From a candidate division TA06 bacterium (lineage in GTDB: Bacteria > Edwardsbacteria > AC1 > EtOH8): DNA of 64,000 nt. The stretch lies in NCBI GenBank assembly GCA_016235665.1, contig JACRJI010000016.1:248001-312000 (forward strand), given 5' to 3'. Below are positions 23,588-48,766 of the stretch, piece by piece. Within the stretch, counting starts at the first letter, position 1, and each line of letters begins with the position of its first letter. The position numbers and the translations under genes are program-made. The notes under the pieces are model-generated. The model made no database searches and was not told the DNA's origin. It worked only from the letters and a program-made list of their open reading frames with translations.

Positions 23588-24442
23588 TTAGCGATAAGTT
23601 TCCAAGAATTTAATGGTTGATTTTCTGTCTTTGAAAGTTGCCTCTATTCTGTCACCGGTATTGTACTTGATTATGATTTCATATTTAGCAATAGGCATTT
23701 TGTTATTGTCTTCTTGATACTTTTCGAGAAAAACAATTGCCTCTGTGACCGAGCTTGTTATTGCTTCTTGACCATGCAAGGGAAGAATAATAATACTCGC
23801 TACAAAACGCGAAACAGATTCTGTCAATACGTCGAAAAACCCTTTTACTTCCTTTTTGTTTAGACGAAGCAGTTCTTTGGCAACATCTTCTTTATTTTGC
23901 AGTTTATTCCAACTATCTATTTTCCTCTTAAACTCTTGTTCCGTGGTCTTTTCGTCAAAATTAGCATTGATGCCATACTTGCGAAAGGCTTTTACAACGG
24001 TATCGTAAGGGAAGTATAAAACACCAAATCCAAGTGATTTAAGTTGGGTCAATGCTCCCTGTGTAAAAACGCCTGCCAGGATTACGCCCATAAACGGAGA
24101 TGAATTTCTATACTTCTCGGAAAGTGGAATTATAGCACTTTGGATTTCTTGTGCTTTATTCCGTGAATGCTTGGTATATCTTCGCCAAGCTGATTCAATA
24201 AATGCAACTGGAATACCCACTCTGCTTTCCGTACCGCCACGTTCCAGCACAAAATCAAGATCGTGTTTGTTGCCTTTGCTGTCAATCCAAGTAACCTTTT
24301 TGCCCGGTCTTGCTTTTCTATCACCGCTCTTATCAAGATAAAGCTTGTTCAGCCTTGCGAATTTTGAAAGATGCGGTTGAATGGCTAATTCTAAAAGGTC
24401 GCCAATAATTTGGCCAAATTTATGAGAAAGTGATTCTGCCAT
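23588..24442 (-). CDS. Probable type II restriction endonuclease (284 aa)
   Basis: Lies 4 bp downstream of a DNA methyltransferase gene and has its own AAAGGA at the end of that gene. Residues about 55-100 look like a PD-(D/E)XK nuclease core: HDLDFVLERGG (D61/D63), then VGIPVAFIESAWRRYTKHSR with E83 and the helix carrying KAQEIQ. The expected core lysine after E83 is not obvious, so the exact active site is uncertain. The gene is AT-rich compared with the flanking housekeeping genes, as expected for a transferred restriction-modification unit. I cannot predict the recognition sequence. Confidence 0.75.
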   Translation of the reverse strand: MAESLSHKFGQIIGDLLELAIQPHLSKFARLNKLYLDKSGDRKARPGKKVTWIDSKGNKHDLDFVLERGGTESRVGIPVAFIESAWRRYTKHSRNKAQEIQSAIIPLSEKYRNSSPFMGVILAGVFTQGALTQLKSLGFGVLYFPYDTVVKAFRKYGINANFDEKTTEQEFKRKIDSWNKLQNKEDVAKELLRLNKKEVKGFFDVLTESVSRFVASIIILPLHGQEAITSSVTEAIVFLEKYQEDNNKMPIAKYEIIIKYNTGDRIEATFKDRKSTIKFLETYR

Positions 24443-24446
24443 ATTT

Positions 24447-25805
24447 TTATCCTTTAATCCAAAGCCTTCCCTCTTGCAAGGGAACGGTGTGTTTTCTATT
24501 TTTCCATTTTACGTTTCTGTCGCGTAGTTTTTCAAAGGAGTAACTGTCGAATCCAGCAGAGACAGCCAATTCTCCAAGCCATTTATCTACAGGCACGTAT
24601 ATCCCGTAAGGAGCGGAATCTCCAATCACAAAACACATTAAACAATTTTCATTTGTTACGCTACGCAACGAATGAAACACCTCTGCCAGATCTTTGAAAT
24701 AAGCCGCAATCATTAAATGATAATTTTTCTTTCCCCCGTGTTTCAGCCTTTCCAATTTGAGAGCTTCGTATACTTCGCTTAATTCTTCCTGAATTGGTTT
24801 CAATTTGCAATCCGAAAGAATACTCTCTATTTCATTTCCCAATTTTGAAACATGCTGCGTGCAAGCTCTCACCAAATGCTTTCTTACGTTTTCCTGCAAA
24901 TCGCACCAACCATTTATATCTCCCCAAAAAGTCATTTCCAGCCTTGTAGCGTCAGCATAGTCGTAATTGTTGGCGTAAGGAGGTGAGGTAATAACCAAAT
25001 CACCCCATCCCTTTGGTATGGATTTTATATCCCTGGCATCTTCATTGAATAATTTTGCGTGTTTTACGTTTTTGTTTTTATTTTGCAACCCCTTCATGTC
25101 AAAATACATTTCATTCACTTTGCTCTCATAAGCAACAAAGGGGTCTATTACTTTTGCTTTTGTTTTGTTGGGCTGAATGTATTGCCATTGAGCAGTTCCC
25201 ACCGGTGAAGTCGTTCGTAATATTGATGTAATAACAAACCAATTGAAATCTTTTATTTCTTTTTCTTGTTCTGTTTCCAGCCAAGTTTGTTTGAGGGCTT
25301 CTAATTTTTGAATAATATCAAGCGGATAGCAGCTCAATATGAGCTTCGGGAAATCCGTTTTATTTATTTTCTTTTTTTTCGCCTGATGCAAAAGCAGCAA
25401 AGCGGATTCTTTAAATTTTTCGGCGGGATAATTCCAAGCTAACTTAGTTTTTGCGATACGATATATGTAAGGGTGTGATTCCAAGCCCATAGATTCAACA
25501 TTTTCAAACTCACTTTCCAGCAAAACAGTCCCTGACCCCGCAAATGGGTCAATTACTCTTGTCCGGCCCTTTGATTTATGAAGTTCAATAAGTTGCTTTG
25601 CCCAGATTGCAGAAAAACCAGCTGTGTATCTATACCATTTGTGAATGGGCAAAACCATATTACCCGCAAAAGTAGCCGAATAGTTTTGCTCAATCTTAAT
25701 TTCTTGCGGGAATATTTCTAAAATATCGATTCCGTGATTAGTAGCATAATTGTGCCCAGAATGCTGCTGGCTTATCTCTGTTCTATTTTTCATGTGCTTA
25801 CTCAT
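24447..25805 (-). CDS. DNA methyltransferase of a type II restriction-modification system (452 aa)
   Basis: SAM-dependent DNA methylase. Motif I is DPFAGSGT at residues 86-93 and the catalytic motif IV is TSPPYANNYDYA near residue 275. TSPPY is typical of N4-cytosine or N6-adenine methylases, while the order (motif I before motif IV) is gamma-like. It pairs with the nuclease gene immediately downstream and protects host DNA from it. Composition is AT-rich, matching the nuclease and unlike yifB and yraN on each side. Start 25803-25805 lacks a strong ribosome-binding site; a second in-frame ATG lies four codons in. Confidence 0.87.
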   Translation of the reverse strand: MSKHMKNRTEISQQHSGHNYATNHGIDILEIFPQEIKIEQNYSATFAGNMVLPIHKWYRYTAGFSAIWAKQLIELHKSKGRTRVIDPFAGSGTVLLESEFENVESMGLESHPYIYRIAKTKLAWNYPAEKFKESALLLLHQAKKKKINKTDFPKLILSCYPLDIIQKLEALKQTWLETEQEKEIKDFNWFVITSILRTTSPVGTAQWQYIQPNKTKAKVIDPFVAYESKVNEMYFDMKGLQNKNKNVKHAKLFNEDARDIKSIPKGWGDLVITSPPYANNYDYADATRLEMTFWGDINGWCDLQENVRKHLVRACTQHVSKLGNEIESILSDCKLKPIQEELSEVYEALKLERLKHGGKKNYHLMIAAYFKDLAEVFHSLRSVTNENCLMCFVIGDSAPYGIYVPVDKWLGELAVSAGFDSYSFEKLRDRNVKWKNRKHTVPLQEGRLWIKG

Positions 25806-29654: not shown

Positions 29655-30974
29655 TCAGAACCCCTGCGGCATCTTGAACCCCCGGCCTTTGGAGTTCATC
29701 ATCTGCTTCATCATCCGCTGGCTCATCTCGAACTGGTTCAGCAGCTGGTTAACCTGCTGGACGCTGGTGCCGCTGCCCATGGCTATCCTCCGCTTGCGGC
29801 TGCCGTTGATGATCTGGGGCTTCTGCCGCTCCTGGGGGGTCATGGAGCTGATGATGGCCTCTATGGCTCCCAGCGCCCGGTCGTCTATGGCGGCGTCCTT
29901 GGGCAGGCTCATCCCGCCCGGCAGCATCTTCATGATGTCGGACAGCGAGCCCATCTTCTTCATCTGCTTCATCTGGCCGGCAAAGTCCTCCAGGGTAAAG
30001 CTCTGCTTGCGCAGTTTCTCCTCAAGCTTTACGGCCTGTTTTTCATCGAAGACATTCTGGGCCTTCTCGACCAGTCCCACCACGTCGCCCATGCCCAGGA
30101 TGCGCGAGGCCACCCGGCTGGGGTGGAACTCTTCCAGGGCCGAAAGCTTTTCCCCCACCCCGATGAACTTGATGGGCTGGCCCGAGATCACCTTTAGGGA
30201 AAGGGCCGCGCCGCCCCGGGCGTCGCCGTCCAGCTTGGTCATGATCACCCCGGACATGGGCAGGGCCTTGGAGAACTCGGTGGCAATGTTGACCGCGTCC
30301 TGGCCGGTCATCCCGTCAACGACCAGGAGGATCTCCTGCGGCTTGACTGTCTTTTGCACCCGCTCCAGCTCGGCCATCATCTCGGTGTCTATGTGCAGCC
30401 GCCCGGCGGTGTCTAAGATCAGCACGTCTATGAGTTTCTTGACCGCTTCCTGCTTGGCCTCCTGGCAGATCTGGGCCACGTCGGTGGATTCCAGTTTGAA
30501 GAAATCGCAGCCCGCCTGCTTGGCCAGGATCTCCAGCTGCTGCACCGCCGCCGGCCGGTAGATGTCGGCCGCCGCCAGCATGATCCGCCGGCCGGGTTTT
30601 GACAAATGCTTGGCCAGCTTGGCGCAGGTGGTGGTCTTGCCCGAGCCCTGCAATCCGCAGACCATGATCACGGTGGGCGGCTGGGGGGAAAGCGTCAGCG
30701 GCTGGCTGACCGAGCCCAAAGTCTCCACTATCTGGTCGTAGACGATCTTGACGAACTTCTGGCCCGGGGTGATGCTGGTCAGCACATCCTCGCCCAGCGC
30801 CTTGGCCTCTACCGCGGCCGCAAAGTCCTTGACGACTTTGTAGTTGACGTCGGCCTCCAGCAAAGCCCGCCGCACCTTGGCGCTGGCCTCTTTGATGTTG
30901 GCCTCGGAGAGTTTGCCCTGCCCGGTCAGGTCCTTGAAAAGCCCGGTGAATTTTTCAGTTAAGGAGTCGAACAT
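29655..30974 (-). CDS. ffh: Signal recognition particle protein Ffh (SRP54)
   Basis: GTPase that binds the 4.5S RNA and signal sequences and delivers ribosomes to FtsY. It has an N domain (1-95), then GLQGSGKTT at 107-115, DTAGRLHIDTEMM, and TKLDGDARGG. The Met-rich M domain follows (QMKQMKKMGSLSDIMKMLPGG, SRKRRIAMGSGT, MMKQMMNSKGRG). At 439 residues the length is normal. The receptor ftsY is also in this window at 48.8 kb. Only a weak ribosome-binding site precedes the ATG. Confidence 0.97.
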   Translation of the reverse strand: MFDSLTEKFTGLFKDLTGQGKLSEANIKEASAKVRRALLEADVNYKVVKDFAAAVEAKALGEDVLTSITPGQKFVKIVYDQIVETLGSVSQPLTLSPQPPTVIMVCGLQGSGKTTTCAKLAKHLSKPGRRIMLAAADIYRPAAVQQLEILAKQAGCDFFKLESTDVAQICQEAKQEAVKKLIDVLILDTAGRLHIDTEMMAELERVQKTVKPQEILLVVDGMTGQDAVNIATEFSKALPMSGVIMTKLDGDARGGAALSLKVISGQPIKFIGVGEKLSALEEFHPSRVASRILGMGDVVGLVEKAQNVFDEKQAVKLEEKLRKQSFTLEDFAGQMKQMKKMGSLSDIMKMLPGGMSLPKDAAIDDRALGAIEAIISSMTPQERQKPQIINGSRKRRIAMGSGTSVQQVNQLLNQFEMSQRMMKQMMNSKGRGFKMPQGF

Positions 30975-30981
30975 ATTTTAT

Positions 30982-31042
30982 GCCCACTAAAGGCACTAAA
31001 TTAACAATAATATTTTCGGATCTTTTCGTGTTTTTCGCGGGC
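30982..31042. repeat. Dispersed imperfect palindrome (GCCCACTAAA...CGTG...CGCGGGC)
   Basis: The ends of this 61-bp spacer segment mirror each other (GCCCACTAAA against TTTTTCGCGGGC). The same wording (cccactaaa ... cacgaaa ... tttcgtg ... gcggg) recurs at 34591-34653 and in the FMN riboswitch arm at 48616-48703. It looks like a dispersed repeat family, not a gene. Confidence 0.55.
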
Positions 31043-31051
31043 AACCCCGGT

Positions 31052-31109
31052 AAATAGAAATCGCCGTCAGTTTGTACTGAATGATCCCTCAAAATACCGC
31101 CAGGGATCA
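31052..31109. repeat. 58-bp direct repeat, copy A (3' side of the 402-aa gene)
   Basis: Identical to copy B at 32347-32404 except for one base. Inside is a perfect 8-bp inverted repeat TGATCCCT / AGGGATCA (31082-31089 and 31102-31109) with a 12-nt loop. There is also a second small hairpin, TCAGT-TTGT-ACTGA. It ends 8 bp before the stop codon end of the 402-aa gene. Confidence 0.93.
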
Positions 31110-31117
31110 AGGACCGT

Positions 31118-32326
31118 TTAAAACCTGCTACCCAATCCAAAGCTTGGTGAAAGGAGAGGTGGGATGTCATCCATTGTATTGGGCCGCGCTCCCACAACCG
31201 AGCTTAAGCCAATACGGTAATATAGGTTTAAATCTTCTATCTTATGGCAGTAATATACGGAGCCTGACCACCAAAGATATTCTACTTTATTTCCACCTAT
31301 GACTAGAACAAGTCCTGTACCTGCTTCGCCCCAGGTTCTTTTTTTAACACTGGTTATCTTATTTACTGTTACTGTGTTAAATATCCCACAGGTACCAGCC
31401 CGAATAGAATATCTTTGAGCAATATTCCTGCTGTAATTGATAGAACCAATTATACCCGGCCCGAACAACTCCAAAAACAAATCATTATTTGTTTTCAGAA
31501 CATATTTTTTCTCAACATCGGGTTTGGATGAATCGGGGAGCAAGCAACTTATAAAAGAAATGTTAATATCTTCCGTTAGCAATGCGGTAACTGGCACTTC
31601 ACCTTTGTTCGGTAATGTATCTGATCGACCCGTTACATATGTCCAGCTTAATTCCCTGGCCGTTTTAATATAATTTGCTGGTTTTATTTCATGCGCCTTT
31701 TGGTAACTATCATCGTACGATTTCACTAAAGCGTTGTTTAAATATCCATCGGCATCTTGGGGCAAAATAAATTTTATTCTGACCGTGTCCGGCAGTGAAT
31801 ACTTAAGCCTTGCACCATTGGTACTAAATTTAATTTCCCAAATATCACCAGTTCCCCCGATGTCTGTGATGTCGGCATATCCAATGTATTCGCAGAGTAT
31901 TTCCTTTTGTTCATTGGGCAGATACCTGATCTTCCAGACATAACTGAACGCATCGAGATTGTTTTTCACCCTATCGGTGACGACCCTCTTATTGTTCTCA
32001 AGTGCCGTGAAATTGACGTTTATCCCCTCTGATTCACCGGAGCTGGCCCTTGCAAAAGGGAATTCAAATTTTACCTCGATCGTGTCATCAGATATATTTT
32101 TGAGACTATACCGGCATTGCACCGGCACGCCGATTCTTGATAACTGTTGGTGTGAAACAATAATGCGGGAGGCATCCAGCACGATATCTCCGGCCAACAG
32201 CCTTATCTTGTTATCTTGGACATGGACCAATCCCCCGTGTATGCCCGGCCTGTCATTTCCCTCGACCGCATGCAGGTTGAAACAAGCTATTATAATAGCT
32301 GATATGGAAATGACTGCTTTTCTCAT
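31118..32326 (-). CDS. Hypothetical exported protein bounded by 58-bp direct repeats (402 aa)
   Basis: I do not recognise the family. Residues 1-20 form a signal peptide ending NLHA. The middle (residues about 60-260) looks like beta-rich extracytoplasmic domains (YSLKNISDDTIEVKFEFPFA, ILCEYIGYADI). The C-terminal 120 residues alternate polar and hydrophobic residues (YSIRAGTCGIFNTVTVNKI, GLVLVIGGNKVEYLWWSGSV) as an outer-membrane barrel edge would, though the chain ends FGLGSRF. The gene is more AT-rich than its neighbours. The two 58-bp repeats lie 20 bp before the ATG and 8 bp after the stop, so the gene looks like a discrete inserted unit between ffh and the ferritin gene. Confidence 0.7.
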   Translation of the reverse strand: MRKAVISISAIIIACFNLHAVEGNDRPGIHGGLVHVQDNKIRLLAGDIVLDASRIIVSHQQLSRIGVPVQCRYSLKNISDDTIEVKFEFPFARASSGESEGINVNFTALENNKRVVTDRVKNNLDAFSYVWKIRYLPNEQKEILCEYIGYADITDIGGTGDIWEIKFSTNGARLKYSLPDTVRIKFILPQDADGYLNNALVKSYDDSYQKAHEIKPANYIKTARELSWTYVTGRSDTLPNKGEVPVTALLTEDINISFISCLLPDSSKPDVEKKYVLKTNNDLFLELFGPGIIGSINYSRNIAQRYSIRAGTCGIFNTVTVNKITSVKKRTWGEAGTGLVLVIGGNKVEYLWWSGSVYYCHKIEDLNLYYRIGLSSVVGARPNTMDDIPPLLSPSFGLGSRF

Positions 32327-32346
32327 ATAATTCTGGTAAAAACACC

Positions 32347-32404
32347 AAATAGAAATCGCCGCCAGTTTGTACTGAATGATCCCTCAAAATACCGCCAGGG
32401 ATCA
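32347..32404. repeat. 58-bp direct repeat, copy B (5' side of the 402-aa gene)
   Basis: Same orientation as copy A at 31052-31109, 57 of 58 bases identical, offset 1,295 bp. It carries the same TGATCCCT / AGGGATCA inverted repeat (32377-32384 and 32397-32404). The one difference shortens the second small hairpin stem. Confidence 0.93.
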
Positions 32405-32430
32405 GGCGGGTCTGACAGCGATGTTATGGC

Positions 32431-32480
32431 CTAACCCCCGTCCCCTTCCCGATGCGGGAAGGGGTGTAGGGGTTGGGTTA
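32431..32480. repeat. GC-rich inverted repeat directly after the ferritin gene
   Basis: CCCCTTCCC (32442-32450) and GGGAAGGGG (32456-32464) form a perfect 9-bp stem with a 5-nt loop, extended by outer AACCCC/GGGGTT pairing. It touches the ferritin stop codon. No U-tract follows in the transcribed direction, so it is more like a REP-type element or mRNA-end stabiliser than an intrinsic terminator. Confidence 0.6.
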
Positions 32481-32966
32481 TTCCCGTTTGCCCAGCTGGC
32501 GGTCCAGCATGAACAGCGATCCCTTGGAATCTCCCAGCATCTTGATCTGGTTCACTATCTCCAGGGTCTGGGCCTCTTCCTCCACCTGCTCGTCCACGAA
32601 CCACTTGCACATGCTGGCCGTGGCGTGGTCGCCTTCCTTGGTGGCCAGGTTGACGATGTCGTAGATCATGGCCGTCACCTTCTGCTCGTGCTTGTAGGCG
32701 TCCTCGAAGACGGTTAGCAGGCTGGCCCACTTGGCCGGCGGGGCGTCTATGGCCTTGAGCGCTATCTGGGAATTGGTGTCCTCCAGGAACTTGTAGAATT
32801 TCATGGCGTGGCCCATCTCCTCCTTGGCCTGGACCTTGAACCACTGGGCGGCCCCGTTGAGGTTCTGGTCGGTGCACCATCCCGCCATACCCAGATACAG
32901 GTATGCCGAATACATCTCGGCGTTGATCTGCTTGTTGATGATGTCCTGAACGCTCTGCTTGATCAT
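32478..32966 (-). CDS. ftnA: Ferritin (FtnA-like, non-haem)
   Basis: Iron-storage protein whose ferroxidase centre oxidises Fe(II) and stores it as mineral. The 162 residues show the ferritin four-helix ligands: INAEMYSAYLYLGMAGW (first Glu), QAKEEMGHAMKFYKFL (E..H), and FVDEQVEEEAQT. I chose ATG 32964-32966 (MIKQSVQDI), which has AAGGAG about 7 bp upstream. The longer in-frame extension to 33035 lacks a sensible N-terminus. It follows the flavodiiron protein gene, fitting an oxygen and iron stress cluster. Confidence 0.93.
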   Translation of the reverse strand: MIKQSVQDIINKQINAEMYSAYLYLGMAGWCTDQNLNGAAQWFKVQAKEEMGHAMKFYKFLEDTNSQIALKAIDAPPAKWASLLTVFEDAYKHEQKVTAMIYDIVNLATKEGDHATASMCKWFVDEQVEEEAQTLEIVNQIKMLGDSKGSLFMLDRQLGKRE

Positions 32967-48467: not shown

Positions 48468-48560
48468 GAATGGATTAAAGCCTGATGAATGAAACCGGGA
48501 TTATTGAAAGATCACTTGTTCAGTCTTGATCAGCAATCCGATCTCACCGATCCATCAGTC

Positions 48561-48760
48561 CTTCTCCCATCCGGACTCTTACCGTCGGCTCCGGAATTCC
48601 ACCGGATCAATCTTGCTGCCCACTAATACTTGTCCTGAGCAAAGTCGAAGGAAACACTAAACCCCAGTATTGTTTTAGAGTGTTTCGTGTATTTCGTGGG
48701 CAGGGAGATTCGCGGGCTTTTAAAACCGCCGGTCGGGGAATTGCGCCCCGCCCTGAAGGT
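48561..48760 (-). promoter_or_regulatory. FMN riboswitch (RFN element)
   Basis: All conserved RFN blocks are present in order on the minus strand: CTTCAGGGCGGGG, then CAATTCCCCGACCGGCGGT, AGCCCGCGA, GATCCGGTGGAATTCCGGAG, CCGACGGT, and AGTCCGGATGGGAGAAG. FMN binding is expected to shut off the downstream ribD-ribE-ribBA-ribH genes. The variable arm is unusually long (48616-48703), closed by CTGCCCAC / GTGGGCAG, and contains a dispersed-repeat motif at 48629-48650. Confidence 0.95.
48616..48703 (-). repeat. Expanded peripheral arm of the FMN riboswitch with dispersed repeat
   Basis: An 88-nt arm with an 8-bp closing stem and an inner GAAACACT / AGTGTTTC-type pairing. Inside is the CTTGTCCTGAGC...AAGTCGAAG word that also occurs upstream of ribBA and inside ftsY. 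The closing wording (gcccact ... ttcgtgggc) matches the palindrome family at 30982-31042 and 34591-34653, so the arm probably is such a repeat. Confidence 0.6.
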
Positions 48761-48766
48761 GCTATA

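Follow-up and report, generated by a model that had tools for sequence, protein, structure and literature searches.

A conserved structured element upstream of ffh borders a variable single-gene slot in Candidatus Edwardsbacteria

The 64-kb stretch of DNA analysed here (the window) belongs to one of ten genomes of a family of Candidatus Edwardsbacteria; its own genome is designated G000 and the other nine G001 to G009. On the minus strand, a ferritin-like gene is followed by a repeat copy, a 402-aa open reading frame (the cargo gene), a second repeat copy, a 77-bp spacer and ffh with its operon (Table 1). The two copies are direct repeats (31052-31109 and 32347-32404) that match at 57 of 58 bp across 1.3 kb, as the first-pass annotation had reported. 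Its spacing is likewise correct (20 bp between the ATG and one copy, 8 bp between the stop codon and the other), as is the perfect 8-bp inverted repeat (TGATCCCT/AGGGATCA) present in both copies. Its picture of a single gene flanked by near-identical repeats requires two amendments: the gene is encoded on the minus strand, which makes the ferritin-side copy the upstream one, and the copies are not equivalent. The upstream copy (R1) is complete at ~79 nt and reaches 21 nt further 5' than the downstream copy (R2), which is truncated and consists of the 3' 58 nt alone. The complete conserved element of ~79 nt is referred to here as R.

Table 1. Features of the R-ffh locus (window positions)
Feature	Position	Strand	Basis
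R1, complete element R	32347..32425	-	covariance model positions 1-81, E 1.2e-23 (copy in training set)
P1 helix of R1, 5' arm	32412..32422	-	pairs with 32355-32365; pair counts
P1 helix of R1, 3' arm, then T-rich tail ending TATTT	32355..32365	-	pair counts; sharp edge
P2 helix of R1, 5' arm = first half of 8-bp inverted repeat	32397..32404	-	pair counts
P2 helix of R1, 3' arm	32377..32384	-	pair counts
Cargo gene, 402 aa	31118..32326	-	GC 0.419 (window 0.544); N-terminal stretch hydrophobic; no family match
R2, 3' 58 nt of R, without 5' arm of P1	31052..31109	-	57/58 to R1; 47 bits with R model
Old R-to-ffh spacer, retained between R2 and ffh	30975..31051	-	comparison with relatives
ffh (SRP54), conserved downstream border	29655..30974	-	Pfam SRP54 2.9e-72; orthologue in 10/10 family genomes
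Ferritin-like gene upstream of R	32478..32963	-	Pfam PF00210 3.3e-41; 6/10 family genomes

R1 and R2 form the sole direct repeat of at least 25 bp at 85% identity or more in the window, where the 42-nt repeat core (up to three mismatches) occurs twice, as against no occurrence in 100 shuffles. Across the whole 2.7-Mb genome the repeat matches at these two sites only, the third match being 23 bp long (E 0.28). A single long minus-strand ORF lies between the copies, accompanied by no integrase of its own; it is AT-rich, as had been noted earlier. The predicted 402-aa protein had no match in Pfam, NCBIfam or PADLOC, none in viral contigs or plasmids, and no meaningful match among solved structures (one at E 0.34). 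It is absent from the other nine family genomes, and among 60 other genomes a distant relative was identified in one, a secreted-looking protein with 25% identity over residues 69-183. The predicted structure was useless (mean pLDDT 29.6).

An initial DNA search of 61 genomes matched seven, namely six family genomes and G024, whose 17-bp match is due to chance. When the sequence ahead of ffh was read in the four remaining family genomes, a diverged R was recognised in each. A covariance model places R at one locus per genome, always upstream of ffh, in all ten family genomes, a count that is partly circular as the model was trained on nine family sequences; in G006 the element lies on two contig ends overlapping by ~98 bp and was counted as one locus. 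The model also recovers R2 in G000 and a partial copy in G001. Of 290 genomes searched with it (the ten of the family included), eleven matched, the one outsider being weak (G052, E 0.004). Eight loci with weak matches were inspected: four proved to be a plain stem with a run of T, and the others contained no visible R. The flanking of the cargo gene would have been coincidental had the repeat been scattered beside unrelated genes, as the first-pass annotation pointed out; the search of the genome and its relatives for the 58-bp element located two places in G000 and one locus per family genome. A dispersed repeat or transposon end was rejected as an identity for R, as no R was found elsewhere in the genomes. 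An exact pattern of R gave no matches in viral contigs, and the region of the window had no match among phage records. Ferritin was recovered in six of the ten genomes, with its 3' end also present at a contig edge in G004; as R occurs in all ten, it goes with ffh and not with ferritin. In G001, the end of the ferritin contig and the start of the R contig (L014 start and L042 end) bear the two ends of one inverted repeat (CAGACTGTGTCATAATA), as would be expected of a transposon separating ferritin from R.

R is highly conserved up to a sharp 3' edge (...TATTT), with 46 of 81 columns invariant across four genera in a hand-padded alignment. It is predicted to form two nested helices, P1 and P2, in which 93.4% of alignment cells are paired. 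Twelve cells are changed on both sides, a value reached by none of 500 shuffles, and register slides of one to three columns, used as a control, gave zero. These changes fall in four pairs, two in P1 and two in P2, and represent few independent events among the four lineages compared. Folding z-scores of four representatives were -4.0, -2.9, -4.3 and -1.1, the weak last value being that of the genus of G009. A further CGCC/GGCG pairing would compete with the inner helix or form a pseudoknot with it, and is uninformative because it is invariant. The T-rich tail that follows the outer helix resembles a terminator, and G-U pairs on the ffh-sense strand suggest that R may be an RNA rather than an element of the opposite DNA strand. 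We infer that R acts as RNA, most likely as a leader of the ffh operon or a terminator-like element belonging to it. Leader and attenuator RNAs of ribosomal operons are similar in their conserved helices and in a T-rich end, here 5' of the ffh-rpsP operon; they differ in that variable genes lie between R and its operon, and R has no match in Rfam. No Rfam family matched in the region up to E 1, and at the gathering score the window contains only an FMN riboswitch (48555-48764, minus strand, 94.6 bits). The position beside ffh had led to SRP RNA being proposed for R; this was rejected, SRP RNA being located at G000:C9:269-368 (52.1 bits). Three sigma-70 promoter-like sites were identified near R, against 4.0 expected from shuffles.

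Examination of the site between ffh and ferritin in relatives, as had been proposed, revealed an empty site in G002, a member of the same genus as G000. Its contig C218 possesses a single R, 54 bp and ffh, with no gene between them, whereas contig C143 of the same assembly carries part of another gene ahead of a near-identical ffh. Over the first 200 nt of ffh the two contigs are 99.5% identical, and immediately upstream of the ATG they have no base in common; we infer that they are two alleles of one population rather than an assembly fault. Compared with the empty allele, G000 has 1295 bp added, one partial R included, and after R2 the same kind of spacer leads to ffh. R2 differs from the R of G002 by one base and the adjacent spacer has drifted more, so the event looks recent, or selection keeps R2. 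Part of this spacer, TTGCCC(A/G)CGAAA..., also lies behind R in G001 (second copy), G002 and G005. In G000 the longer form TTGCCC(A/G)CGAAA.ACACGAAA (window 30980-31051) is a loosely dispersed intergenic motif, with 17 weak matches besides its own site, and as such the spacer was discarded as a mark of insertions.

The genes of this slot, for which the longest ffh-strand ORFs in each R-to-ffh gap were chosen, are co-directional with ffh, mostly AT-rich and different in nearly every genome. Besides the 402-aa gene of G000, they encode a 303-aa DUF2330 protein and a 101-aa two-CW protein in G001, and proteins of 197 aa in G003, 110 aa in G004 (just below the Imm58 cut-off), ~98 aa in G006 (membrane-like), 288 aa in G007, 214 aa in G008 and 244 and 103 aa in G009; the 48-aa ORF of G005 is doubtful. 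Their GC content is 0.29-0.33 in G003, G004, G007, G008 and G009 and 0.42 in G000, with surrounding blocks at 0.52-0.65; both cargo genes of G001 are not AT-rich. The ORF is not flush with R in G003, G005 and G006, at distances of ~270, 60 and 320 nt, respectively. The G007 cargo had no match among plasmids or solved structures. An all-against-all comparison of 13 translated ORFs (12 from slots and one from the ffh-rpsP gap of G007) gave a single match at E<1e-3, between G003 and G008 (E 7e-9). Used as queries, this pair matched three of 145 genomes, both themselves and, weakly, G057. This distant pair apart, each cargo was seen in one species only, so exchange between species would be an indirect deduction, a point against the reading favoured below.

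Across the family, then, the genes lying between one set of core genes differ from genome to genome, as in hotspots without mobile elements. The variability of the slot was compared with that of other intervals using 33 conserved neighbour pairs in the six genomes with longer contigs; ferritin did not serve as an anchor and lies inside the gap where present. The ODP-ffh gap measures 541-2117 bp in all six, and of the gaps inspected (all but the 3.6-5.5-kb gap at the far end) it alone was filled differently in every one of them; variation in a few others is confined to one or two genomes. Within the genus of G005, G007, G008 and G009, where 17-34 start codons were covered per genome pair, ffh had the least alignable upstream 40 nt in all six pairs, among the six start codons listed for each; R and the start of ffh are nonetheless at least 90% identical there. 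Other insertions were observed nearby. Two AT-rich genes (GC 0.38) lie between conserved genes at window 23588-25805 on the minus strand and have no counterpart in the relatives compared; with a DNA methylase (PF01555, 4.9e-11) as the first of them, they are perhaps a restriction-modification pair. In the ffh-rpsP gap of G007:C72 (L068 3136-3978), an AT-rich 281-aa membrane-like gene occurs in this genome only, behind a spacer of the GCCC-CGAAA type.

Both edges of the slot are sharp. Ungapped identity falls from 0.65 over the final 20 nt of R to 0.22 over the 20 nt that follow, and at the ffh start only 0-2 nt upstream of the start codon are shared in 11 pairs, with a slight similarity just before ffh remaining between G005 and G007 (gapped 0.68). 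The 3' part of the target is duplicated on the far side over 58 nt in G000 and 35 nt in G001, and not in the other filled genomes. In G001 the 35-bp partial R stands behind the first cargo gene; the second is preceded by 70 bp of decayed ffh start sequence (80%) and followed by the intact ffh start; this duplicated ffh start is as expected if DNA with a cargo-ffh junction recombined in. On one contig of G001 (L014, G001:C87, 1946-3120) ffh is in two pieces on opposite strands, probably an assembly fault. As G000 and G001 show, insertions at both borders thus leave border duplications, of the kind that a single crossover would produce. The remaining filled genomes possess neither a border duplication nor a second R, so that exchange between two copies of R explains at most two cases, the second R being near-perfect only in G000.

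The reading we favour, with a probability of roughly 0.55, is that of a hypervariable single-gene slot whose left border is R and whose right border is the ffh start codon, its contents being exchanged for DNA from relatives through recombination anchored in R and ffh and, presumably, without a dedicated recombinase. Foreign genes lacking an obvious promoter of their own would be swapped in and out beside the essential ffh-rpsP-trmD operon. In G000, the latest gene would have arrived on DNA ending with the 3' 58 nt of R, and recombination in R would have produced the complete copy upstream of the gene and the partial copy downstream of it. With the empty site and the differing genes of relatives, the direct repeats mark the most recent gene to enter the slot.

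The first-pass annotation had likened the layout to integron cassettes, with no attC-type core site in evidence. A single-gene unit inserted at the repeat agrees with the empty site of C218 and the different genes of relatives; integron membership does not stand. As it had noted, core sites are lacking: GTTRRRY occurs in none of the ten R elements on either strand, and neither GTTRRRY nor RYYYAAC (attC) in the last 150 nt before ffh at ten loci, on which grounds an integron cassette at the R-ffh site was rejected. The integrase profile gave ten matches in G000, the best of 88 bits over 61 positions against a cut-off of 265. Even though the cargo genes are single, promoterless-looking ORFs and integrons exist in the family, a true cassette inserted at attI or a secondary site is thus scarcely credible. 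The only family genome of the ten with an integron integrase above the cut-off is G008 (462 bits), where a complete integron lies behind clpB (L099, G008:C70, 9305-11642), with the integrase, GTTAGGC sites of the attI and attC types and two cassettes that terminate in classical attC-type sequences; on its far side the clpB 3' end recurs as a decayed copy of 111 nt (76%). A second integron integrase, in two frames (180 and 253 bits) and probably frameshifted, is present in G001 (L100, G001:C29, 187-1126).

It is also conceivable, if unlikely, that R is a site-specific recombination site, attI-like or attB-like at the 3' end of a structured RNA, with a recombinase encoded elsewhere inserting small circular cassettes at its 3' edge and R2 as the truncated far-side site. 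The point in R at which similarity stops is identical, to the nucleotide, in G000, G001, G002, G004, G005, G007, G008 and G009, the genes are single and compact and lie 4-45 nt from R in six filled genomes, and tyrosine-recombinase-like matches occur in all ten genomes at a loose threshold. No recombinase gene is encoded at the locus, however, most filled slots carry no second R or remnant, R is found nowhere else in the genomes or, as an exact pattern, in viral contigs, and this reading gives no account of why the right edge of the slot coincides with the ffh start codon. Islands at the 3' ends of tRNA and small-RNA genes similarly have the complete structured element on one side and its 3' part duplicated on the other; here the insert is 1.3 kb with one gene and no integrase, and R belongs to no known RNA family. 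The order of full site, gene and truncated site recalls elements integrated within the 3' part of RNA genes as well as the attI-ORF-delta-attI cassettes of PMC12901181, which share a full site, one ORF and a truncated site copy behind it and which are the closest published layout. Unlike these cassettes, the locus has no GTTRRRY and no integrase above the cut-off in G000, and most relatives lack the truncated copy. More speculatively, Edwardsbacteria may possess a single-gene capture system, so far unrecognised, for which R is the docking site and which operates without attC sites or an integron integrase, a doubtful proposition. If true, one gene at a time would be installed and replaced at the exact 3' edge of R, much as on an integron platform, and the captured gene would be placed in an essential, well-expressed operon.

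Alternatively, the interval may simply be permissive, with foreign genes landing occasionally by any route, R being a leader or terminator protected by selection and the G000 repeat a chance by-product of duplication. The AT-rich insertions in the ffh-rpsP gap of G007 and elsewhere in the window agree with this, and the clpB duplication beside the G008 integron indicates that duplications at insertions are not special to R. Simple insertion would not, however, predict the loss of the old spacer, which is complete up to the ffh ATG even between the two alleles of one assembly; the ffh-rpsP insert of G007, by comparison, retains its native right-side spacer. With the ODP-ffh gap standing out among the 33 neighbour pairs as well, this explanation is judged improbable.

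Hotspots without mobile elements usually hold many genes; the slot described here mostly holds one, has a structured element at one border, and has breakpoints flush with that element and with a start codon. In other respects such hotspots are the closest published process to the exchange favoured here: turnover through recombination in flanking core genes is established for them (PMC5635113, which also mentions tRNA and tmRNA integration sites), and they share one conserved interval, flanks of core genes, different genes per genome and no integrase. No account of the slot appeared among the open-licence papers listed on insertion hotspots with direct repeats, integrase-less cassettes, RNA-gene attachment sites, ffh hotspots and secondary integron sites.

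The first-pass annotation overlooked both the nature of its repeat, a conserved and structured element associated with ffh, and the turnover of genes in this slot throughout the family. The locus represents a near-minimal gene-turnover hotspot in an uncultured phylum, with one gene and two sharp borders, one of them structured, before an essential operon. The slot offers a simple place to harvest genes without known function. If its borders reflect mechanism rather than selection, it would be a new way to sample foreign genes under existing expression control.
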